Shown piece after piece: positions 2,782 to 26,131 of a stretch of 64,000 nt of DNA (positions are counted from its first letter, which is position 1; every line of letters starts with the position of its first letter). The position numbers and the translations under genes were made by a program. The notes under the pieces are model-generated. The model worked only from the letters and a program-made list of their open reading frames with translations, was not told the origin of the DNA and ran no database searches. Source of the DNA: Phenylobacterium sp. (GTDB lineage Bacteria > Pseudomonadota > Alphaproteobacteria > Caulobacterales > Caulobacteraceae); assembly GCF_030651185.1 (NCBI RefSeq), contig NZ_JAUSCJ010000041.1:157693-221692 (forward strand). The letters run 5' to 3'.

Positions 2782-3449
2782 CTTTCGGCGATGCGCCGCA
2801 AGCCGCTCGCGTCACGCACCTCGATCTGGCCGTAGCCGAGGGTCAGCAGGCCGGCGCGCTGGAAGCCCAGCAGGTAGGCGTTCACGGTCTTGCGGCTGAG
2901 GCCCATCATCTCGGCCAGGGCCTGCTGGTTGATGCGCAGGGTCGGGCCTCCGGTGCGGGCCATGACGTCCAGGCGCGCGGCCAGCCGCTGGCGCGGCGGC
3001 AGGGCCACGGCCTCGGCGGCGATCATCAGGGCGCCGCGCAGCTGCAGATAGACCAGGGCCGCCACCGCCTGCCACAGCTCCGGCCGCTCCGCCGCGATCC
3101 GGGTCAGGGCATGGTCGGGGACCACCAGCAGCACGCTGGGCTCGACGCAGATCAGGGTCACCAGCCGCGGCCCGCCGCCGAACCGCAGGGTCTGGCCCAG
3201 GGCCACGCCGGGACCGGCCTGGCCAAACAGCACCTCGCGGCCGCCGGGCGCGGCGCACAGCATCTGGACCGCGCCGTCCACCACCAGGGTGATCCCGGTC
3301 TGCTCATCGCCCTCCGACTGCGCCCAGGCTCCGGCGGCCAGGTGGACGATACGGCCATGGGTCAGCAGGGCCTCGATCAGCGGTGGCCCATGCCCCTGCA
3401 GCCAGACCGACTTCCTCAGCAGTTCAGCGGCGCGCTCGCGAGGGCTCAT
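2778..3449 (-). CDS. Crp/Fnr family transcriptional regulator
   Basis: cNMP-like N-terminal domain plus C-terminal HTH (LAEMMGLSRKTVNAYLLGFQRAGLL); start chosen at MSPRERAAELL rather than the longer ORF. Confidence 0.8.
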   Translation of the reverse strand: MSPRERAAELLRKSVWLQGHGPPLIEALLTHGRIVHLAAGAWAQSEGDEQTGITLVVDGAVQMLCAAPGGREVLFGQAGPGVALGQTLRFGGGPRLVTLICVEPSVLLVVPDHALTRIAAERPELWQAVAALVYLQLRGALMIAAEAVALPPRQRLAARLDVMARTGGPTLRINQQALAEMMGLSRKTVNAYLLGFQRAGLLTLGYGQIEVRDASGLRRIAES

Positions 3450-3519
3450 TCTCAATTGTAACCCTGGTGACAAACTGAACCAAGCCCCCGGCCTAGGCTC
3501 TCCGCAACAGGAGCCCGCC

Positions 3520-4356
3520 ATGACCCCCACCCTCGACCTCTCGATCCGCCCCACGGACGGCTGCGGCGCCCTGGTTCAGGGTATCGACTTGAACCGGGCC
3601 ACAGACGCCGAGATCGACCTGATCCGGTCCACCGTCTTCGACCGCGGCGTGGCCTTCATCCACGGCCAGCAGATGACCCCCGAGCAGCAGATCGCCTTCG
3701 CCCGGCGGCTCGCCCCCATCGTCGTCAACCGCTACTTCCCCAAGACCGAGCGCTATCCCGAGATCGCCAAGGTCGAGAAGACGCCGGAGCAGCAGACCAA
3801 CATCGGCGGCGGCTGGCACACCGACCACAGCTACGATGTCGCGCCGGCCATGGGCTCGGTGCTGCTGGCCATCGAGACCCCGCCCACCGGCGGCGACACC
3901 CTGTTCGCCGACATGTACGCCGCCTATGACGCGCTGTCCGACGGCCTGAAGGCGACGCTCGCCACCCTGAAGGCGCACCACGCCTCGGAGCACGTATTCG
4001 GGGAGAGCAGCGTCTACGCCATGACCGACCGCGCCGACCTGGCCGGAAACAAGGACGTGCCCGACGCCGTCCACCCGATGGTCATCACCCACCCCGGCAG
4101 CGGCAAGAAGGCGCTCTACGTCAATCCGGCCTTCACCACCGGCATCGTCGGCTGGACTCGCGAGGAGAGCCTGGCCCTGCTGGGCTACCTCTACCAGCAC
4201 GCCGTCAAGCCGCAGTTCGTCCATCGCTTCCAATGGGCCAAGGGCTCGATGGCCATCTGGGACAACCGCTGCACCTGGCACCAGGCCTTGAACGATTATC
4301 CCGGCCAGTACCGCCTGATGCACCGCATCACGCTCGATGGTGGCCCGCTGAGCTAG
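3520..4356 (+). CDS. TauD/TfdA family Fe(II)/2-oxoglutarate dioxygenase
   Basis: HxD motif in GGGWHTDHSYD; TauD-like C-terminus (AIWDNRCTWHQALNDYPGQYRLMHRITL). Confidence 0.9.
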   Translation: MTPTLDLSIRPTDGCGALVQGIDLNRATDAEIDLIRSTVFDRGVAFIHGQQMTPEQQIAFARRLAPIVVNRYFPKTERYPEIAKVEKTPEQQTNIGGGWHTDHSYDVAPAMGSVLLAIETPPTGGDTLFADMYAAYDALSDGLKATLATLKAHHASEHVFGESSVYAMTDRADLAGNKDVPDAVHPMVITHPGSGKKALYVNPAFTTGIVGWTREESLALLGYLYQHAVKPQFVHRFQWAKGSMAIWDNRCTWHQALNDYPGQYRLMHRITLDGGPLS

Positions 4357-4511
4357 GCGTCCCGGGAAGAGGCATGGTGTGCATCGGTCATTCCTCTCGA
4401 AGGGCCGCCGCCAAGTCCGCCGACATCTGCGCGCGCGCCTCCGCCCCCGCACGGGCATCCGCCCGCGCCCGGCCTGCGTAGACTCAGCACCAGCCTCATG
4501 GAGATCCCGAG

Positions 4512-5066
4512 ATGCGCACGACCCTGATCGGCCTGATGACGGTGTCGGCCCTAATGGCCTGCGGCGCGCCGGCCCTGGCCCAGAGCCGCCCGACCACGCC
4601 GCCCACAGCAGGGCCGCTGAACCCCGACACATTCTATCGCGGGACCTGGTACGAGCAGGCGCGCACCCCCACCAGCCTCACGCGCGGTTGCGAGTACGCC
4701 ACCACCGAGCATGGCCGCGACAGCCAGGGCCGGATCACGGTGCGAGACGCCTGTCGGCAGGACGGGCCCGAGGGCCGCGAGCGGGCCCTTTCCGGAATCG
4801 GCACGATCCTGGACCCCGGTCAGAACGCGGTGCTGGACGTCCGCTACCGCTTCGGTCCGTTCCGCCCGTCGCGCGAGTATCGGGTGATCGCCGCAGGGGC
4901 GCAGGGTGAGTGGTTCATCTCCTCGGAACCCGAGTTTGACAAGGTCTATGTCTTCACCCGGGCCGTCGCCCCGCCCCGGACCGAGGTCGAGGCGATGATC
5001 GGCCGGGTGCGCGCCCTGGGCTATGGCGGCGACATCGAGGTCCTGGCGACCCCGGGGCGCGACTGA
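4512..5066 (+). CDS. Lipocalin family protein with signal peptide
   Basis: N-terminal signal then FYRGTWYEQARTP...GCEYATTEH, resembling the bacterial lipocalin GxWYE motif. Confidence 0.7.
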   Translation: MRTTLIGLMTVSALMACGAPALAQSRPTTPPTAGPLNPDTFYRGTWYEQARTPTSLTRGCEYATTEHGRDSQGRITVRDACRQDGPEGRERALSGIGTILDPGQNAVLDVRYRFGPFRPSREYRVIAAGAQGEWFISSEPEFDKVYVFTRAVAPPRTEVEAMIGRVRALGYGGDIEVLATPGRD

Positions 5067-5085
5067 CCCTCGGGGAGAGGCCGCC

Positions 5086-6951
5086 TCAGGTCCGCGTCGC
5101 GAACTCGGAATCGCCGGTCACCGCCACCACCTGGTCGTCGAAGGAGGCGTGGGCCGAGGTGTAGAGGTGCGAGTACAGGCCGCCGGTCTTCATCAGTTCG
5201 TCGTGGCTGCCCTGTTCCTGGATGCGCCCCTGCTGCAGCACCACGATGCGGTCGGCGTCGCGGATGGTGGCCAGGCGGTGGGCGATGACCATGCAGGTGC
5301 GGCCGGCGAACAGCACCTTCAGCGCCTTCTGGATCGCCTGCTCGGTAAAGCTGTCGATATTGGCTGTGGCCTCGTCGAGGATCAGGATCTGCGGATTGGC
5401 CACCAGGGCGCGGGCGAAGCTGATCAGCTGGCGCTGGCCCATGGAGATGTTGCGGCCCCGCTGGCCCAGCTGCGTGTCGTAGCCGTCCGGCAACCGCATG
5501 ATGAAGTCGTGCGCGCTGACCGACTTGGCCGCGGCGATCACATCGTCCTTGGTGGCGGTGAGCGTGTTGTAGCGGATGTTCTGCTCGATGGTGCCGGTGA
5601 ACAGGAAGGGCTCCTGCAGCACCATGCCGATATTGGCGCCCAGGGAATCCAGGGTCACGTCGCGCACGTCGTGGCCGCCCACCAGGACCTGGCCCTGGTC
5701 CACCTCGTAGAAGCGGTGGGCGAGCGCGATGATGCTGGTCTTGCCTGAGCCGGTGGGACCCACCAGGGCCACGACCTCCTTGGGGCGCACCATCAGGCTG
5801 ATGTCGTGCAGGATGGGACGCTTGGGGTCGTAGCCGAAGGTCACGTTGCGGAATTCCACGGTGGCCGGAACATCCTTCAGTTCGATGGCGCCCGGCTTGT
5901 CGGCGATGGTCACTGGCACGTCGATCACCTCGAAGATCCGGTGACCGGCGGCCATCGCTCTCTGCATGATGGTGTACTGCATCGACAGCATGCGGACCGG
6001 CTCGAAGAACCGCTGCACATAGAGGATGAAGGTCACCATCACGCCGACGTTCAGCGTGCCGCCCAGCACCGCGTTGCCGCCCACGATGATGACGATGGCC
6101 ATGGCCAGGCCGGTGAGCACGTCCACGGTCGGGACCATGATCTGGGTCATCCAGGAGGCCCCCACCTGGGCGGTGAAGTTCTCCTGGGCCTTCTCCTTGT
6201 AGAGCTCGAAATTCAGTTGCTCGCGGCGGCTTTCCTGCACGGTGCGAATGCCGTTGATGTTTTCCGCCAGGGCCGAATTGGCGGTGGAGGACGCGTCGCG
6301 GGCGACCCGGAAACTCTTCTTGGAATAGGGCAGCCAGACCGCGCGGATGGCGATCAGGGCCGGCAAGACGGTCAGGGTCAGCAGGCCGAGCTTCAGGTCG
6401 GTGGTGAGCAGCACCACCGTGATGCCCAGCAGCATGACGAAGTCGCCGATCGCCCCGTTCATGTTCTCCAGGAACTCCTGGAGCGCGTTCACGTCGCCCT
6501 GCAGCCGGGCCATGATCCGGCCGACGTGGGTCTTGTCCATGAAGGACAGGGAGACGTCCTGGAAGTGGGCGAACATCTTGCGGCGGATGTCGAAGATCAC
6601 CCGCTGGGCCAGGCGCGAGGACAGCCATTCGCCGATGAAGAAGAAGGTGGCGTAGGCGGCCGCCACGGCGGCGAAGACGATCAGGGTGCGGTCCAGCAGC
6701 GGCCCGTCCTTGGCCACCGCGGCGTTGACCGCCGCGCCGATCATCGCCGGCACCGCGACCTGCGTGGCCGCGGAGATCAGCACCGCCACCTGGGCGATGA
6801 CCAGGGCGCGCTTGTGGGGCCCCAGGAAGGCCAGGAACCGGCGGGCGACCTTGACGTCGAAGGCCCCGAAGATGTCGTCCCCCTCCGACGAGCCGAGGGA
6901 GGCCCGGGGCGCGGTGCGCTTGGGCGCGGCGTTGGCGGCGGTGTCGGTCAC
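5086..6951 (-). CDS. ABC transporter permease/ATPase half-transporter, exporter type
   Basis: Walker A GPTGSGKTS, Walker B ILILDEATANIDS, signature NISMGQRQ; six-TM-type N-terminus. Confidence 0.92.
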   Translation of the reverse strand: MTDTAANAAPKRTAPRASLGSSEGDDIFGAFDVKVARRFLAFLGPHKRALVIAQVAVLISAATQVAVPAMIGAAVNAAVAKDGPLLDRTLIVFAAVAAAYATFFFIGEWLSSRLAQRVIFDIRRKMFAHFQDVSLSFMDKTHVGRIMARLQGDVNALQEFLENMNGAIGDFVMLLGITVVLLTTDLKLGLLTLTVLPALIAIRAVWLPYSKKSFRVARDASSTANSALAENINGIRTVQESRREQLNFELYKEKAQENFTAQVGASWMTQIMVPTVDVLTGLAMAIVIIVGGNAVLGGTLNVGVMVTFILYVQRFFEPVRMLSMQYTIMQRAMAAGHRIFEVIDVPVTIADKPGAIELKDVPATVEFRNVTFGYDPKRPILHDISLMVRPKEVVALVGPTGSGKTSIIALAHRFYEVDQGQVLVGGHDVRDVTLDSLGANIGMVLQEPFLFTGTIEQNIRYNTLTATKDDVIAAAKSVSAHDFIMRLPDGYDTQLGQRGRNISMGQRQLISFARALVANPQILILDEATANIDSFTEQAIQKALKVLFAGRTCMVIAHRLATIRDADRIVVLQQGRIQEQGSHDELMKTGGLYSHLYTSAHASFDDQVVAVTGDSEFATRT

Positions 6952-8822
6952 GCGGGGGCCCCTTCCAAGGTCACGTCGTCGAGGGTGGCCGAGGCGTCGG
7001 ACCGCGACTGCAGTTCATAGAGGTCGGCATAGACGCCGCCGGCCTTCAGCAGTTGGGCATGGGTCCCCCGCTCCACCACCCGCCCCTCGTCGAGGACGAT
7101 GATCTGGTCGGCGTGCATCAGGGACGACAGGCGGTGGGCGATGATGATGGTGGCCTTGGTGCGGGTCGCCTCGGACAGCGCGTCGCGCACCCGGCGTTCG
7201 GTCACCGCGTCGATGGCCGCCGTCGAGTCGTCGAAGATCATCACCCCGGGGCCGGGCACCACGCCGCGGGCGATGCTCATCCGCTGCCGCTGACCGCCCG
7301 ACAGCGCCACGCCTCGCTCGCCGACCCGGGTCTCGTAGTCGGCGGGCAGGCCGACGATGTGTTCGTGGATCTGGGCGGTCTTGGCGGCGCCGACGATACG
7401 CGCCTCCTCCGCCCACGGATCGGCATAGGCGACGTTGTGGCCGATGGAGCTGTCGAACAGGAAGGCCTCCTGCTGCACCAGGCCGACATACTCGCGCAGG
7501 GACGGCAGGGTCACGTCGCGGATGTCGACGCCGTCGATGGTGATGGCGCCGCCGGTGACCTCGTAGAAGCGCGGGATCAGGTTGGCGATGGTGGACTTGC
7601 CCGAGCCGGGCGGGCCGACGATGCCCAGGGTCTGGCCGGGCCCGACCTCGAAGTCGACGCCGCTGAGGATCTGCTTGCCCGGCACATAGCCGAAGTCGAC
7701 GCTGTCGAAGCGCAGCACCCCCTTGGCCGGCGCCAGGGGCCTGGCGTCCGGCGCGTCGGCGATCTCCGGCTCCAGGTCCAGCACCTCGAAGACCCGCGCC
7801 CCTGAGGAGGTGGCCCGCGCCGCGGCGTTGAAGATCATGGCGATCTGGCGGATCGGGCCTTGCAGCAGGGTCATGTAGGTGAGGTAGGCCGTCAGGGTGC
7901 CGACGCTCATCGTGCCCGCCGCCACCTTGTGACCGCCGTACCAGAGGACGCCGGCCATGGAGGCGTTGAAGGTGACCTGCATCACCGCCACGGCCCGGAA
8001 GCGCAGGGTGATGCGGTTGTAGGAATAGGCCAGGGCGTCCACCGAGGCCTGGTCGAACTTGGCCATCTCGAAGGCCTTGCCGGCGAAGGCGCGGACCACG
8101 CGGATGCCCTGGAGGTTCTCCTCCATGGTCAGGGTCAGCTGCGCCATCAACTCCTGGAAGCGCAGCCAGGTGACCCGCAGCAGGAAGCCCATGCGGCCGA
8201 GCGCCAGGGCCGAGAAGGGCACGAACGCGAGGCCGATCAGCCCCAGGGTCTGGTCGATGGCCAGCATCTGCCACGAGGCGAAGACCAGCAGCAGGACGAG
8301 GGTCAGGATCGGCATCAGACCGCCCTGGATGAAGACCCGCGCGCCCTCCAGGTCGAGCATGCCGCGGGTCACCAGGTCGCCGGAGTGGATGCGGTCGTGG
8401 AAGCCGAAGGACAGTCGCTGGAGCTGCTGGAAGAACTGCAGGCGCAGGTCGTGGCCGACCTTCTGGCTGACCAGTTCGCCGAGATAGCCCGACCACATGG
8501 TCATGGCGCCGCGCACGATGGTGGCCCCGATCACCAGCCCGGCGGTGATCAGCAAGGCCTGGCGGGCCTGGTCGGCATGGTCGGCGCCTTGCAGCAGCAG
8601 GCCGTGCGCCTGGTCCACGGCGCGGCCCAGCAGGCGCGGCAGGGCCAGGCTGGCGAGCGCCGCGCCCAGCGAGGCGGCCATGGCCAGGGCCACCAACCAC
8701 GGGTAGTTGAACGCCAGACCAACGATCCGCTGCAGTACGCGGGGCATAGTCTTCACATCGACCTGGATTGGCTCGGACGCAGCCGACGCCGCACCCCGCC
8801 GGGAGGGGTGTGAATCACTCAT
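6948..8822 (-). CDS. ABC transporter permease/ATPase half-transporter, partner of the 5086..6951 gene
   Basis: Walker A GPPGSGKST, signature ALSGGQRQRMSIAR, Walker B VMIFDDSTAAID; 4-bp overlap with the downstream half-transporter. Confidence 0.92.
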   Translation of the reverse strand: MSDSHPSRRGAASAASEPIQVDVKTMPRVLQRIVGLAFNYPWLVALAMAASLGAALASLALPRLLGRAVDQAHGLLLQGADHADQARQALLITAGLVIGATIVRGAMTMWSGYLGELVSQKVGHDLRLQFFQQLQRLSFGFHDRIHSGDLVTRGMLDLEGARVFIQGGLMPILTLVLLLVFASWQMLAIDQTLGLIGLAFVPFSALALGRMGFLLRVTWLRFQELMAQLTLTMEENLQGIRVVRAFAGKAFEMAKFDQASVDALAYSYNRITLRFRAVAVMQVTFNASMAGVLWYGGHKVAAGTMSVGTLTAYLTYMTLLQGPIRQIAMIFNAAARATSSGARVFEVLDLEPEIADAPDARPLAPAKGVLRFDSVDFGYVPGKQILSGVDFEVGPGQTLGIVGPPGSGKSTIANLIPRFYEVTGGAITIDGVDIRDVTLPSLREYVGLVQQEAFLFDSSIGHNVAYADPWAEEARIVGAAKTAQIHEHIVGLPADYETRVGERGVALSGGQRQRMSIARGVVPGPGVMIFDDSTAAIDAVTERRVRDALSEATRTKATIIIAHRLSSLMHADQIIVLDEGRVVERGTHAQLLKAGGVYADLYELQSRSDASATLDDVTLEGAPA

Positions 8823-20346: not shown

Positions 20347-21204
20347 CTAGCGAAGCTTGGTCATCGTGTCGTAGGCCACCTGGGCGCCGATCAGCTGCGG
20401 GGTCTGGCGGCTAGGGCCGCTGCGCTTCTCGAAGCCCGCCCCGTTCACCGCCACCCACTTGGCCTCGCCCTTCGGCGGATTTCCGGAGGTGGTGAACTGG
20501 GCCCGCACCGTGGAGGTGGGCAGGTGGGTGACCTTGACCGTGAAGGTGACCCCGGTGGGCGACGAGGCGTCATCGTCGGGCAGGATCTCGATCAGGTACT
20601 GGATGCCCTGGCCCATGGCCAAGGTCTCCAGGTACTGGATGTCCATCCGGTCCTCGCGGGACTGCTTGGCCGAGACCTTGCGGATCACCGCCTCGCGATC
20701 GACGATCCGGGCGCCCGCCGACAGGAAGGTGTTGAGGATCGAGCTCTCGACGCTGCGGGTGAAGTTGTTGCTGCGGAAGCCGTAGCTCGAGTCGGTCATC
20801 CGCTCCTGGTACTGGCGGCTTTCGCTGGCCGAGGCCGCCATGCCGCTGGAGGCGCTGGCCGCCCAGCCCCGGCCGCGCACGGCGGCGCCCTGGCCGACCG
20901 CGATCCCGGCCGAGCTGGTGGTCTGGACGCTGTCGTACTGGCTGGTGGCGTCCTCGATCAGCTGGCGGTTCCAGAACATCAGCATGGTGGGCCGCCCGGC
21001 GCCGGCGTACCAGCGCGCGAAGCTCGACGAGGACGTGTAGTTGCCGGCGTCCGGATTGGCGCTGGGCGGCGGGGTGTTCACGTCGGGCATGCCCTCGCGA
21101 TAGGTCACCGCCGGCGCCTGGGGCCGGTACGGCTGGGCCATGGCGGGGCCGGCGACCAGGAGGGCCGTCAGCGCCGTGGCGAAGAGCTTGGTTTGGTTCG
21201 ACAT
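20347..21204 (-). CDS. Exported protein of unknown function; possible CsgG/LpoB-like fold in C-terminal half
   Basis: Signal peptide MSNQTKLFATALTALLVAGPAMAQ; segment ILNTFLSAGARIVDRE...YLETLAMGQGIQYLIEILP recalls CsgG/LpoB-type domains (by eye). Confidence 0.55.
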   Translation of the reverse strand: MSNQTKLFATALTALLVAGPAMAQPYRPQAPAVTYREGMPDVNTPPPSANPDAGNYTSSSSFARWYAGAGRPTMLMFWNRQLIEDATSQYDSVQTTSSAGIAVGQGAAVRGRGWAASASSGMAASASESRQYQERMTDSSYGFRSNNFTRSVESSILNTFLSAGARIVDREAVIRKVSAKQSREDRMDIQYLETLAMGQGIQYLIEILPDDDASSPTGVTFTVKVTHLPTSTVRAQFTTSGNPPKGEAKWVAVNGAGFEKRSGPSRQTPQLIGAQVAYDTMTKLR

Positions 21205-21231
21205 CGAACCCTCCTGAGTCTTGAGACGCGC

Positions 21232-21693
21232 TTAGTCGGCGCCGCGGATTTCGACGTAGTACTGGGCCGAGTTCAGGCGGGCCGAGTTCTGCTCGAAGGT
21301 CACCATGGCGTTGGGCTGGACGAAGAGGCTGGTCCAGGCCTGGGCGCCGTCGGTGGGCACGCCGTTCTGGTCGTACCAGCTGGCGCGCACCTGCAGCGGC
21401 AGGGCGACATTGGTCTTGTTGCGGATCTGGACGGTGATCTTCTTGAAGCCCGTGGGGCCGGTGGAGACGTAGGCGCCCTCGGTGTCCAGCAGGCTGTCGA
21501 CCTTGAACTTGCGGCCGACGTACTTGGCGAGCGTGTTGTCGATCACCCGGACCGAGTTCAGCTCAGGACGGATGTTGTTCTGCTGGTCGATGCGGACGCC
21601 ACCCTCGGGCGGGGTGGTTTCGCAGGCGGCCAGGCCCAAGCCGAGCACGGCGGTGGCGGCGACAATGGTCAGGTGTTTGCGGAAGGAGGTCAT
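21232..21693 (-). CDS. YcfL-like (DUF1425) lipoprotein
   Basis: Lipobox LGLAAC; NSVRVIDNTLAKYVGRKFKVDSLL...ITVQIRNKTNVALPLQVRASWYDQNG. Confidence 0.75.
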   Translation of the reverse strand: MTSFRKHLTIVAATAVLGLGLAACETTPPEGGVRIDQQNNIRPELNSVRVIDNTLAKYVGRKFKVDSLLDTEGAYVSTGPTGFKKITVQIRNKTNVALPLQVRASWYDQNGVPTDGAQAWTSLFVQPNAMVTFEQNSARLNSAQYYVEIRGAD

Positions 21694-21710
21694 GGGATTT
21701 CCGTTCTCTT

Positions 21711-22877
21711 TTAGTGGGCGCGCACGAGGCACAGCTGTTTGCGGTTGGCGTCGGTGGCGCAGGTGACGGGCTTTTCGGCCACCGGGACGCCGGCCTTGAG
21801 GAAGTTGGCGGTGAGGTTCAGGCTCCTGCCGCCGGCCCCCATCGTCAGGACGTGGACGGTGTCGGGCAGGGAGCTCCAGGTGCGGACGTCGGCCTGGGGC
21901 TTGGAGCTGGAGGAGACGATCAGGAGCACCCCGGACAGCACGCCGACAGCGGCGACGGCGTCGCCGTATTGGCCCCCCGCGCTGAATGCGCCGTTGTTCT
22001 CCGACAGCGCCACCGTGGTGTCGGACAGGAAGCTGCCGATGCCCCCGGTAGTGGCCTTGAACTGGGCCTTGCCGGCCAGGATCTTGTCGATCTCCCGGCC
22101 GCCGCGGGTGGAGGCCTGATAGAAGATATCCTCCATCGGATAGGCCTGCATGGGGGCCGCGCCGTTCATCACCTGGACCTGGTTTTCCAGGATCGGCTTG
22201 CCGCGCCGGTAGACGAAGAAGGAGTGGCTGGCGCCGTCTCCCAGCTTGCGCGGGGCCATGCCGGTTTCCACCAGCACCAGGGTGTCGTCCTTCTCGCCGA
22301 TGCCGCCATAGGTGGGGCGCAGCTTCTTGAGCTGGACCATGGTCTCGTCGCGCAGGTCGGTGTCGCCGTTGAGATGGCTGGCCCAGGCGTCGAGGAACAG
22401 CAGCAGGGCGAAGTCGGACCGATTCTGGTCCTCCTCGGCGAAGGCGTCCTGCATCAGGCCGCGCCGGAAGGCGGCCCGGGCATTCTCATAGTCAGCGTCG
22501 TGCAGGTAGATCAGGCCACGGTACAGGAACACCATGGCCCGCTCGTAGGGCTCGCCTTTGAAGTCCTTGGAGCCTTCGTCGTACCAGAGCTTGCGGGCCT
22601 TGGCGGCGTTGGCGTTGTCGGCGAACACCGAGTCGACGCGCAGGATGGCGTCGTCCAGGGCCGGCTTTGCGGTGGCGTAGTCGGCGCGCCAGAAGGCCCG
22701 GGCGCCGATCTCCATCTGGTTCAGGACCCGATTGGTGGGCAGGTCGCTGGCCAGGCGGTCGACGAAGATTTCCGGTCCCGCGTCATAGGGAACGGGCGGC
22801 AGGAGAGGCGGCGGCTTGGCCTGGGCCGAGCCGAAGGCGGCGACCGCAAGCGCCCCTGAAAGGGCTGCGAGTTTCAT
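21711..22877 (-). CDS. COG3014-like exported protein with TPR-like region
   Basis: Signal peptide; GEPYERAMVFLYRGLIYLHDADYENARAAFRRGL. Confidence 0.65.
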   Translation of the reverse strand: MKLAALSGALAVAAFGSAQAKPPPLLPPVPYDAGPEIFVDRLASDLPTNRVLNQMEIGARAFWRADYATAKPALDDAILRVDSVFADNANAAKARKLWYDEGSKDFKGEPYERAMVFLYRGLIYLHDADYENARAAFRRGLMQDAFAEEDQNRSDFALLLFLDAWASHLNGDTDLRDETMVQLKKLRPTYGGIGEKDDTLVLVETGMAPRKLGDGASHSFFVYRRGKPILENQVQVMNGAAPMQAYPMEDIFYQASTRGGREIDKILAGKAQFKATTGGIGSFLSDTTVALSENNGAFSAGGQYGDAVAAVGVLSGVLLIVSSSSKPQADVRTWSSLPDTVHVLTMGAGGRSLNLTANFLKAGVPVAEKPVTCATDANRKQLCLVRAH

Positions 22878-22885
22878 CGTCGGAC

Positions 22886-23527
22886 CTAGCGGTAGACGAC
22901 GTCGTCGCGGTTCTCTTTCTTGAACTCGTACAGGTTCGACCAGATGATTTCGCCGTACTCCATGTCGAGCAGCTCGAAGGTGTACTGGCTGAACCGCGAG
23001 GTCGTGCCCGTGCGGGTGTCGATGGCGTCCCGGGTGCCGATGCGGCCCACCAGGCGGTAGTCGGCGCCGGCCTGGGCCCGCGTGCGGCCCGTGGTGCCGA
23101 CGTCCACCTTGCCGGCGTCCTTCAGGGCGCGTTCTTCCTCCACCGCCCCGGCGTATTCGCGGCCGATGAAGCGCATGCGGCCGCCGGCGGCGCGCAGCAG
23201 GTTGACCCGGATGCGGTCGGTGATCAGGGCCTTGTCGATGATCTCGGAGCTCTCGTTCCGGAAGAACTTCGGGTCGACGATGATCCGCGGCGGGGTCGGG
23301 CGATTCATCAGTTCCGGCACGTTCAGCAGATCGCGGAACATGGCGTCGGCCATGGAGACGATGTCCTGGCTCTCGGTGCCCACGCCCCGCACCCCGTCGG
23401 AGGTGGTGGTGTCGCGATAGACCGTCGCCGAGCCCTGCGGCTTCAGCTTCGGCGCGGCCAGGGCCGGTCCGGCGGCCGCGAAGCCGAGGGCGGCCAGCAG
23501 GCCGATGGTGGTGGTTTGAATGCGCAT
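22886..23527 (-). CDS. Penicillin-binding-protein activator LpoB-like protein, no lipobox
   Basis: IVSMADAMFRDLLNVPELMNRPTPPRIIVDPKFFRNESSEIIDKALITDRIRVNLLRAAGGRMRFIGRE...ADYRLVGRIGTRDAI; start at MRIQTTTIG. Confidence 0.75.
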   Translation of the reverse strand: MRIQTTTIGLLAALGFAAAGPALAAPKLKPQGSATVYRDTTTSDGVRGVGTESQDIVSMADAMFRDLLNVPELMNRPTPPRIIVDPKFFRNESSEIIDKALITDRIRVNLLRAAGGRMRFIGREYAGAVEEERALKDAGKVDVGTTGRTRAQAGADYRLVGRIGTRDAIDTRTGTTSRFSQYTFELLDMEYGEIIWSNLYEFKKENRDDVVYR

Positions 23528-23631
23528 GATCGCCCCCTTGGCGTGGACGGCCCTTGGGGTGGCCGCCTGAAATTTCAGAGGGTCATCGGCCGCGCCCGAC
23601 ACGCGGCCGAATCCCCGTGTTTGGCCTGTGG

Positions 23632-24150
23632 TTACTTGCCGACCGAGGCGCTCTGCAGCGCGGGCAGGTAGGCGACCTGGAAGTCCGGATAGATCGCGTA
23701 GGTCGCGTCCAGGATCTTCTGGTACTCCGGGTTGGTGGAGTGGTTGACGTACATGTAGAGCGCCATGTCGTTCAGCGAATTGAAGGACAGGTCGGTCGAG
23801 GCGCGCAGGAACTCCTCGCCGCCGATGGACTTCAGCGCGATGCCCCGGCCCATGGCCGCGCCGGCCTTCTTGCCGAGGAAGCCGCCGACGAAGGGCACCT
23901 GTTCCATGGCCTTCTGACCGGCGTAGTTGCCCGCCATCGAACCGATCTGGCCGGCGGCCTTCACCGACATCGACTTGGTCACCCAGCCGGCGGTGACGCC
24001 GTCGGAGGTGAAGGGCGAGGCGTACTTGCCGGCCGAGCCCTCGATGGGGGCGGGCGCGGTGAGCGCGGTCGGGGCGGCGATCGGCGGCGCGCCCCAGGCC
24101 GTCAGCATCAGAGCCCCGGCGACGACGACGGGAATATGGATCTTCTTCAT
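23632..24150 (-). CDS. Exported protein of unknown function with glycine-zipper-like segment
   Basis: Signal peptide; AGNYAGQKAMEQVPFVGGFLGKKAGAAMGRG; same orientation as the LpoB-like gene. Confidence 0.6.
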   Translation of the reverse strand: MKKIHIPVVVAGALMLTAWGAPPIAAPTALTAPAPIEGSAGKYASPFTSDGVTAGWVTKSMSVKAAGQIGSMAGNYAGQKAMEQVPFVGGFLGKKAGAAMGRGIALKSIGGEEFLRASTDLSFNSLNDMALYMYVNHSTNPEYQKILDATYAIYPDFQVAYLPALQSASVGK

Positions 24151-24439: not shown

Positions 24440-26131
24440 TCAGGCTGCGGCGCGGCGCAGGACCTCGTCCCAATGCTTCAAGGCCATCAGGTGGCCGATG
24501 CCGGGGACCACCCGAACCTCGCGGGGCTTGTCCCCCAGATAGTCCAGCAGATCGGCCAGGGGCGCGAAGACGTCCTGGTCGCCGTGCCAGACCTCCAGCG
24601 GACAGGCGAGGTCGGCGACGGTGAGGTTGCGGGCGCGGCGGAAGGCCTTCACCTCGTCGGCCGCCCCGCGGCTCGTGCGGGCCAGGGCCTCGCCGACATA
24701 GGTGGCGATGTAGCTTGCGATGTGGGCGTTCTCGTCGAAATAGGCCGCGTCACCCGGGGAGCCCCCGACCGAGCCGCGGACAACGCGTTCCACCAGCTGC
24801 GCCGACATCCGCAGGCGCAGGATGGCGTAGAAGGTCTCGATCACCCACGGATTGTTCTCGATCCGCGAGCGGAAGAGGGTGAGCGGGTTCTTGTGGTGGA
24901 TCTCGCTGACCGGCCGGGGCGGACGCCCCGAGCACAGCAGCACCCCCGCGGCGCGGGGCCCCAGGCGGATGGCGGTCTGGAGGGCCGAGGGCGCGCCGGA
25001 GAGGATGGCGCCGATGCGGACCTCGGACAGGCCAAGCTGGTCGCAGAGCTCCACCATGTCATCGGCGACGCTGTCAAAGCTATAGTCCGGGCTGGGGTCT
25101 GACTGTCCGAACCCCGGCCGTTCGGCGCAGATCAGCCGCAGGTTTAGCTCGCAGGCCAGGCCTTGAGCCCCCGGCGGCAACAGACTGGACCCCAGGCCCT
25201 CATGGAAGATCAGCACCGAGCGGCCGGCGGGAACGCCATAGTCGCGATAGGCCAGGCGGCGGCCATCCCGCAGGGTGATCGCCACCACCGGCGGGGCGTC
25301 GGCGCTGGCCAGGGGGATCATGCCGGGGGTCTGGATCTCGATGGCGCTGGCCACTGAGGAGAGCTGGGTCAGGGCCCGGATCAGGTCGCTCTGCCGCTTC
25401 AGCCCCATCTTGTCGAAGATGGCGCGGAGCTGGTTGCGCAGGGTGTTGACGCTGACCTCCAGCTCGTCGGCGGCCTCCTTCAGCGAGCGGCCATCCCGCA
25501 GCTTGCGGGCCAGGCGCAGCTCGGCCGGCGTCAGGCCGAAGCTCTCGCGGATGGACGACCACAGCCTGCCGGTCTCCTCCACCGCCGGGAAGATCAGGGC
25601 ATAGGCCTGGTCGTCGTCGGCCAGCTCGATGGCCGCGGCGTCGGCGACGCCCGGCAGGGCGCGGGCGGGCGCCACATAGGCGAAGCAGGGACCATCGTCC
25701 TCGCCGCGATCCAGGCGCAGGATGGTCTGCCCCCCGGCCTGGGCGCGGGACTGGGCCAGGGCCCGGGTCAGGGCCTCGGCGTTGCCGGGGTCGTCGAAGC
25801 CAAGCTCGGCCCCGACCTTCATCCGCCCGAGGCTTGAGGCCATCACATCCCGGGCCAGTGTGTTGGCGGCCAGCACCTTGCGCCGCGACGACAGCACGAT
25901 CCAGCCGATGTCGTTGCGCCCGGCGGGGATGGGGCCCTCCTCGGGCCGCGCGGTCAGGCGGGCGACATCCTGGCTGCGGGCCATGTCCTGCGCCGCCTCG
26001 GGGGGCATGTCCTGCAGGTCGCCGGCGTCGGCCAGGGCGTCGATGAGCTGCTGCCAGGAGTCGGGATTGGCGGCGACCTGGTACATGGTCTCGATCACCA
26101 GGGCGACATTGGCGCTCTTCGTATCGTCCAT
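24440..26131 (-). CDS. LuxR-type HTH regulator fused to alpha/beta-hydrolase-fold domain
   Basis: HTH FGLTPAELRLARKLRDGRSLKEAADELEVSVNTLRNQLRAIFDKMG followed by a hydrolase-like domain VLIFHEGLGSSLLPPG...ICAERPGFGQSDP...VVPGIGHL. Confidence 0.88.
   Translation of the reverse strand: MDDTKSANVALVIETMYQVAANPDSWQQLIDALADAGDLQDMPPEAAQDMARSQDVARLTARPEEGPIPAGRNDIGWIVLSSRRKVLAANTLARDVMASSLGRMKVGAELGFDDPGNAEALTRALAQSRAQAGGQTILRLDRGEDDGPCFAYVAPARALPGVADAAAIELADDDQAYALIFPAVEETGRLWSSIRESFGLTPAELRLARKLRDGRSLKEAADELEVSVNTLRNQLRAIFDKMGLKRQSDLIRALTQLSSVASAIEIQTPGMIPLASADAPPVVAITLRDGRRLAYRDYGVPAGRSVLIFHEGLGSSLLPPGAQGLACELNLRLICAERPGFGQSDPSPDYSFDSVADDMVELCDQLGLSEVRIGAILSGAPSALQTAIRLGPRAAGVLLCSGRPPRPVSEIHHKNPLTLFRSRIENNPWVIETFYAILRLRMSAQLVERVVRGSVGGSPGDAAYFDENAHIASYIATYVGEALARTSRGAADEVKAFRRARNLTVADLACPLEVWHGDQDVFAPLADLLDYLGDKPREVRVVPGIGHLMALKHWDEVLRRAAA

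Follow-up and report, generated by a model that had tools for sequence, protein, structure and literature searches.

Five adjacent genes at 20347..24150 on the minus strand of the window (the whole 64,000-nucleotide stretch of Phenylobacterium sp. DNA analysed here) are one real, co-inherited unit, transcribed in the order GZ, LpoB, COG3014, YcfL, U1. The LpoB-family protein belongs to this conserved unit in genomes that lack the UB2H docking domain, so the automatic label 'PBP activator LpoB' would mislead; the unit may reveal a role of the LpoB, YcfL and COG3014 families apart from PBP1b. To these families the cluster adds GZ and U1, which are conserved families without names. In transcription order the genes are:

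24150..23632, minus strand: GZ, first gene of the unit; exported, glycine-zipper-like protein of 172 aa
23527..22886, minus strand: LpoB-family protein (PF13036); 213 aa, with a signal peptide but no lipobox
22877..21711, minus strand: COG3014-like protein; 388 aa, TPR-type helical domain and beta domain
21693..21232, minus strand: YcfL/DUF1425 lipoprotein (PF07233); 153 aa, lipobox LAAC
21204..20347, minus strand: U1, last gene of the unit; exported protein of 285 aa without a family match

A preliminary description of this DNA had picked out five consecutive, closely spaced, same-strand genes for exported proteins, and the open reading frames are indeed found there; it gave no strand, which is minus. 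The intergenic gaps of 104, 8, 17 and 27 bp (in transcription order) appear consistent with one operon, and a hydrophobic N-terminal export signal was recognised by eye on all five proteins. Comparison with two Phenylobacterium relatives gave dN/dS values of 0.14–0.50 across the five genes, U1 being the fastest, indicating purifying selection on each of them. A phage or defence origin of the cluster was rejected, as none of the five proteins matches PHROG or PADLOC and COG3014 occurs in no phage record. A literature search returned nothing published on COG3014, a single paper mentioning DUF1425 and nothing linking these families together.

Searching public genomes with the COG3014-like protein as query yielded 32 loci, in which GZ, LpoB, COG3014, YcfL and U1 follow one another in identical order in Phenylobacterium, Sphingobium SYK-6, Pseudidiomarina, Alteromonas and Massilia; Novosphingobium keeps the order but has U1 inverted. 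Two Phenylobacterium loci (L007 and L012) yielded no GZ, and in the Verrucomicrobiota loci LpoB, COG3014 and YcfL (plus U1 where the contig reaches) come after an unrelated glycine-zipper gene that is unmatched by the GZ profile and is of YMGG type (E 9e-11 in L028). Beyond the five, no gene is constant around the unit across the genera inspected, and since the outside genes vary between genera we set the limits of the unit at these five; no constant neighbour in these genera is a beta-barrel porin, export substrate, polysaccharide synthase or curli gene. The proposal that the two terminal unknowns, 20347..21204 and 23632..24150, are additional parts of the cluster is thus borne out by the same order in other classes.

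The unit is rare and patchy, being present in Alpha-, Beta- and Gammaproteobacteria and in Verrucomicrobiota, so that the initial view of LpoB/YcfL neighbours as mainly gammaproteobacterial no longer holds. The COG3014-like profile was found in 12/101 genomes of Phenylobacterium and in 5/398 Pseudomonadota species. An independent U1 search of the 398 species recovered the same five and one further species with U1 and LpoB in which COG3014 was undetected; U1 therefore co-occurs with COG3014 in 5/5 carriers (hypergeometric p ~7e-11, treating species as independent). This co-occurrence, the gene order recurring across classes and the purifying selection on all five genes point to something beyond a chance arrangement. 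GZ occurs in three of the 398, namely the source genome, one species in which it lies at a contig end with its neighbours out of view, and one without the unit. Plasmids carry copies of the unit in one Sphingomonas and one Marinobacter. Within Caulobacteraceae the carriers are scattered, the COG3014-like protein being encoded in 2 of 60 sampled genomes. Horizontal spread is the simplest reading, although it is not proved by the LpoB tree, which has several long branches and does not settle the direction of transfer.

Two of the five proteins fall into named families, as had been proposed from their resemblance to LpoB and YcfL. The window LpoB-family protein matches PF13036 (E 7e-21, 75.1 bits against a cut-off of 22.3) and the window YcfL matches PF07233/DUF1425 (E 1.8e-8, 34.6 bits, cut-off 28.3), with the YcfL family profile also matching a solved structure, 3o0l (E 5.7e-6). 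GZ, the COG3014-like protein and U1 have no significant Pfam family, and a PDB sequence search with COG3014, U1 and LpoB gave no credible match. Although the COG3014-like protein is without a match in Pfam and NCBIfam, its profile finds proteins in Alteromonadales (E 7e-11 to 8e-4; 14 genomes of the order in addition to the source genome) that sit directly upstream of YcfL and/or LpoB, and these distant matches make the COG3014 name first given to 21711..22877 plausible. Its predicted structure comprises a TPR-type helical domain (residues 36-186) and, after it, a beta domain (199-250 and 340-387), within which an insert is of low confidence and unmodelled; the TPR assignment is supported by Foldseek and by Pfam TPR hits among relatives (best E 1.5e-9). 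Homologues of GZ precede LpoB in Phenylobacterium, Sphingobium, Novosphingobium, Pseudidiomarina, Alteromonas and Massilia, and the glycine zipper read into 23632..24150 receives weak Pfam matches in relatives (E 0.004-0.045) but none in the window protein itself.

Lipoboxes were called by sequence pattern, calls that are unreliable for the LpoB of Sphingobium and Novosphingobium and for some Verrucomicrobiota COG3014 entries with uncertain starts. In the window only YcfL carries a lipobox (LAAC), and the same holds for the other Phenylobacterium copies, while the gammaproteobacterial copies have it on four of the five proteins (GZ, LpoB, COG3014 and YcfL) and the Massilia copies on GZ, LpoB and YcfL. 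The GZ lipobox of the gamma- and betaproteobacterial copies is replaced in the window protein and its close Phenylobacterium relatives by a Trp in the Cys position (LTAW). LpoB has a lipobox in gammaproteobacterial, betaproteobacterial and Verrucomicrobiota copies and lacks one in the window and its Phenylobacterium relatives, and U1 nearly always has an export signal and no lipobox. The YcfL lipobox is found in nearly all relatives (none was called in two entries), and YcfL is therefore predicted to be the constant lipid anchor and the most constantly lipidated subunit.

The AlphaFold2 model of U1 has a mean pLDDT of 68, with an ordered core at about residues 53-78 and 146-285 and a long variable insert at about 84-141. 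The best PDB match of this model in Foldseek is PelC of PelBC (9h80_A, E 4.7e-3, prob 1.00), followed by CsgG, the TolB N-terminal domain, GNA1162 (prob 0.92) and the LpoB C-terminal domain (prob 0.91). PelC, CsgG, TolB, the LpoB C-terminal domain and GNA1162 are generally placed in one fold group. Sequence homology between U1 and LpoB was rejected, the profile comparison aligning the N-terminal signal region only. We assign U1 a PelC/CsgG/LpoB/TolB-N-like α/β fold with moderate confidence, because every Foldseek match has an E-value of 0.001 or more and the searches did not tie U1 to LpoB by sequence; the CsgG/LpoB-like fold anticipated for 20347..21204 thereby gains support from structure prediction at that same level. 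The CsgG family itself (PF03783) is matched by neither the window LpoB nor the window U1 in Pfam, and is matched, in addition to PF13036, by 8/24 cluster LpoB relatives.

The five-gene unit may encode an outer-membrane-linked periplasmic assembly, ring-like in the manner of PelC and CsgG and with a TPR scaffold, a reading to which we give an even chance of being correct. In such an assembly LpoB and U1, sharing the CsgG/PelC/LpoB/TolB-N fold, would supply ring- or scaffold-like parts, the COG3014 TPR protein would organise them, the YcfL lipid would tether the complex to the outer membrane on its inner face, and the glycine-zipper protein would pack into or against a membrane. The whole would support export, or organise components locally, at the outer membrane, like PelC with the PelB TPR region or the CsgG group, and would work otherwise than by PBP1b activation through UB2H. 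In PelBC, a ring of CsgG-fold-like lipoproteins binds the TPR region of PelB (PMC12141448). We favour this assembly because the same gene order is found in four bacterial classes and plasmid copies exist in Sphingomonas and Marinobacter, because U1 and COG3014 co-occur, and because the U1 model matches PelC best, a third of the cluster LpoBs match PF03783 and COG3014 has a TPR domain. Retention of YcfL alone as the consistent lipoprotein in Alphaproteobacteria, set beside four lipoboxes in Gammaproteobacteria, also fits a single-anchor complex. The gene set and its order, the co-occurrence, the pattern of signals and lipoboxes, the lack of UB2H and, with moderate confidence, the fold class are observed; that the proteins form a complex and a ring and serve a client or cargo is inferred. 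Against the assembly stand the quality of the U1 model (pLDDT 68, Foldseek E > 0.001) and the unaligned U1 and LpoB profiles, the fact that no export, curli or polysaccharide gene constantly adjoins the unit, and the behaviour of GZ, which is replaced in Verrucomicrobiota and once present without the rest of the unit. The preliminary description had suggested that the cluster may be a cell-envelope assembly, and its reading as an envelope module is supported. A bolder version, in which an undescribed, horizontally spread outer-membrane machine unites two CsgG-fold proteins, the TPR protein, YcfL and GZ in a ring-like export or scaffolding complex, with the enteric LpoB/YcfL pair as a pared-down relative that later became linked to PBP1b, seems to us unlikely.

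The same description had also offered PBP regulation, a proposal that the analysis does not support for this genome, in view of the absence of UB2H and of a lipobox and the low equivalog score of the window protein. E. coli LpoB acts by docking onto UB2H, a domain of PBP1b (PMC3060616; PMC6220978), and LpoB and this docking domain are reported to be co-restricted, to gammaproteobacteria/enterobacteria (PMC3060616). In the source genome, a draft with an estimated completeness of 100%, UB2H is absent, the sole weak match (21.6 bits, cut-off 27) being UvrB, and PBP1b regulation via UB2H was rejected there; as far as the draft is complete, UB2H-dependent activation is excluded, and with the docking part missing LpoB-type PBP1b activation is very unlikely in this organism. 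Among 22 carriers searched, true UB2H (77-85 bits, in frames of ~770 aa) occurs only in Pseudidiomarina and Alteromonas; the other matches are weak and partial, in frames whose lengths suggest Mfd or UvrB (identity checked only for that of the source genome), and none of the sampled alphaproteobacterial, Massilia or Verrucomicrobiota carriers has the domain. An activating role of the cluster LpoB towards a class A PBP, with the other four proteins as helpers and with docking here through something other than UB2H, is an explanation we regard as improbable: the protein belongs to PF13036 and the source genome encodes six transglycosylase-domain proteins (class A PBPs), but canonical LpoB membership was rejected at 39.4 bits against the TIGR02722 equivalog cut-off of 110.55, the Pro/Gln-rich spacer seen ahead of the domain in the E. 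coli protein is missing along with the lipobox, and in the tree the cluster LpoBs form a separate clade well apart from classical LpoBs. PF13036 occurs once per genome in 20 carriers, always as the cluster copy, and in Pseudidiomarina and Alteromonas this lone copy is accompanied by a true UB2H PBP, so in the gammaproteobacterial carriers the cluster LpoB may have a PBP role, through UB2H-dependent activation.

The patchy distribution and plasmid carriage, together with the lack of constant substrate genes nearby, would also suit an accessory, horizontally moving fitness module in which lipoprotein and TPR protein sense stress or envelope quality, reporting on the state of the outer membrane or peptidoglycan. 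We consider such a sensor quite unlikely, as the conserved unit contains no regulator or signalling protein, and the LuxR/hydrolase gene adjoining it in the window is not beside it in the other genera inspected. The plasmid copies raise a further idea, that the unit is accessory to a surface appendage or polysaccharide system (a Flp pilus or a c-di-GMP-controlled matrix) and aids passage across the outer membrane: the Marinobacter copy adjoins Flp pilus genes and GGDEF/PilZ genes, and the Sphingomonas copy a nucleotide-sugar dehydrogenase and a diguanylate cyclase/phosphodiesterase. No such neighbours surround the listed chromosomal copies, however, so these genes may be ordinary plasmid cargo, and we hold this role to be doubtful at best.

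The outer-membrane assembly that we favour can be set beside several known systems. The gammaproteobacterial triad shares three of the five families, also adjacent, but runs COG3014, YcfL, LpoB where the cluster runs GZ, LpoB, COG3014, YcfL, U1; GZ and U1 were not found within the short stretch examined around the triad, and its LpoBs lie outside the cluster clade. In E. coli, ycfL immediately precedes lpoB. PelC and PelB of the Pel exopolysaccharide exporter pair a PelC-fold protein with a TPR partner at the outer membrane, as the cluster would if the U1 model is right, yet the cluster TPR protein lacks a beta barrel, Pel synthesis genes are absent beside the cluster, and U1 is not a lipoprotein and has the long insert. 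The GNA1162 (DUF799) lipoproteins are linked to U1 by the Foldseek match noted above, with no match at the level of sequence family. CsgG, the curli channel, and CsgG/HfaB represent the fold class predicted for U1 and LpoB, although curli subunit and CsgE/F genes are not among the five; NCBI gives the name 'CsgG/HfaB family' to the LpoB on the Sphingomonas plasmid. The source genome carries three separate CsgG-family genes.

A caspase-domain protein is encoded directly after the gene for U1, the last exported protein of the five-gene unit, in a divergent copy of the unit (L096, genome G151), which also carries an additional 257-aa ORF, with a lipobox-like signal at its start, between LpoB and COG3014.

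L096 1526-2902, minus strand: caspase-domain protein (Peptidase_C14, E 1e-36)

Two genomes from the same genus as the window encode a divergent and longer form of the COG3014-like protein (617-660 aa), which contains a long Ala-rich insert and is followed by an uncharacterised exported protein of 250-280 aa. At L122, LpoB, YcfL and U1 adjoin the long gene in divergent orientation, with a small additional ORF separating YcfL from U1.

Long COG3014-like protein and following exported protein:
L122 (G690) 5586-8281
L121 (G746) 3379-6113

The homologue of the glycine-zipper-like first protein, GZ, sits within a 510-aa frame on Marinobacter plasmid pHP-187 (L092 6816-8348), the long N-terminal extension having a lipobox-like signal of its own. 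In Pseudidiomarina woesei, U1 is immediately followed by another GZ gene, divergent in sequence and the second at that locus (L016 8417-9124). Upstream of GZ in the window lies a LuxR-type HTH fused to an alpha/beta hydrolase domain.

24440-26131, minus strand: LuxR-type HTH and alpha/beta hydrolase protein, 563 aa

U1 is adjoined by a peptidase S41 gene in Pseudidiomarina and Alteromonas loci, on the opposite strand in Alteromonas.

Peptidase S41 gene beside U1:
L013 8468-9754
L021 8370-9737

At L010 11439-11822 the motif FRSTPLREG recurs along a reading frame, which is perhaps a translated array of short direct repeats, CRISPR-type or other.
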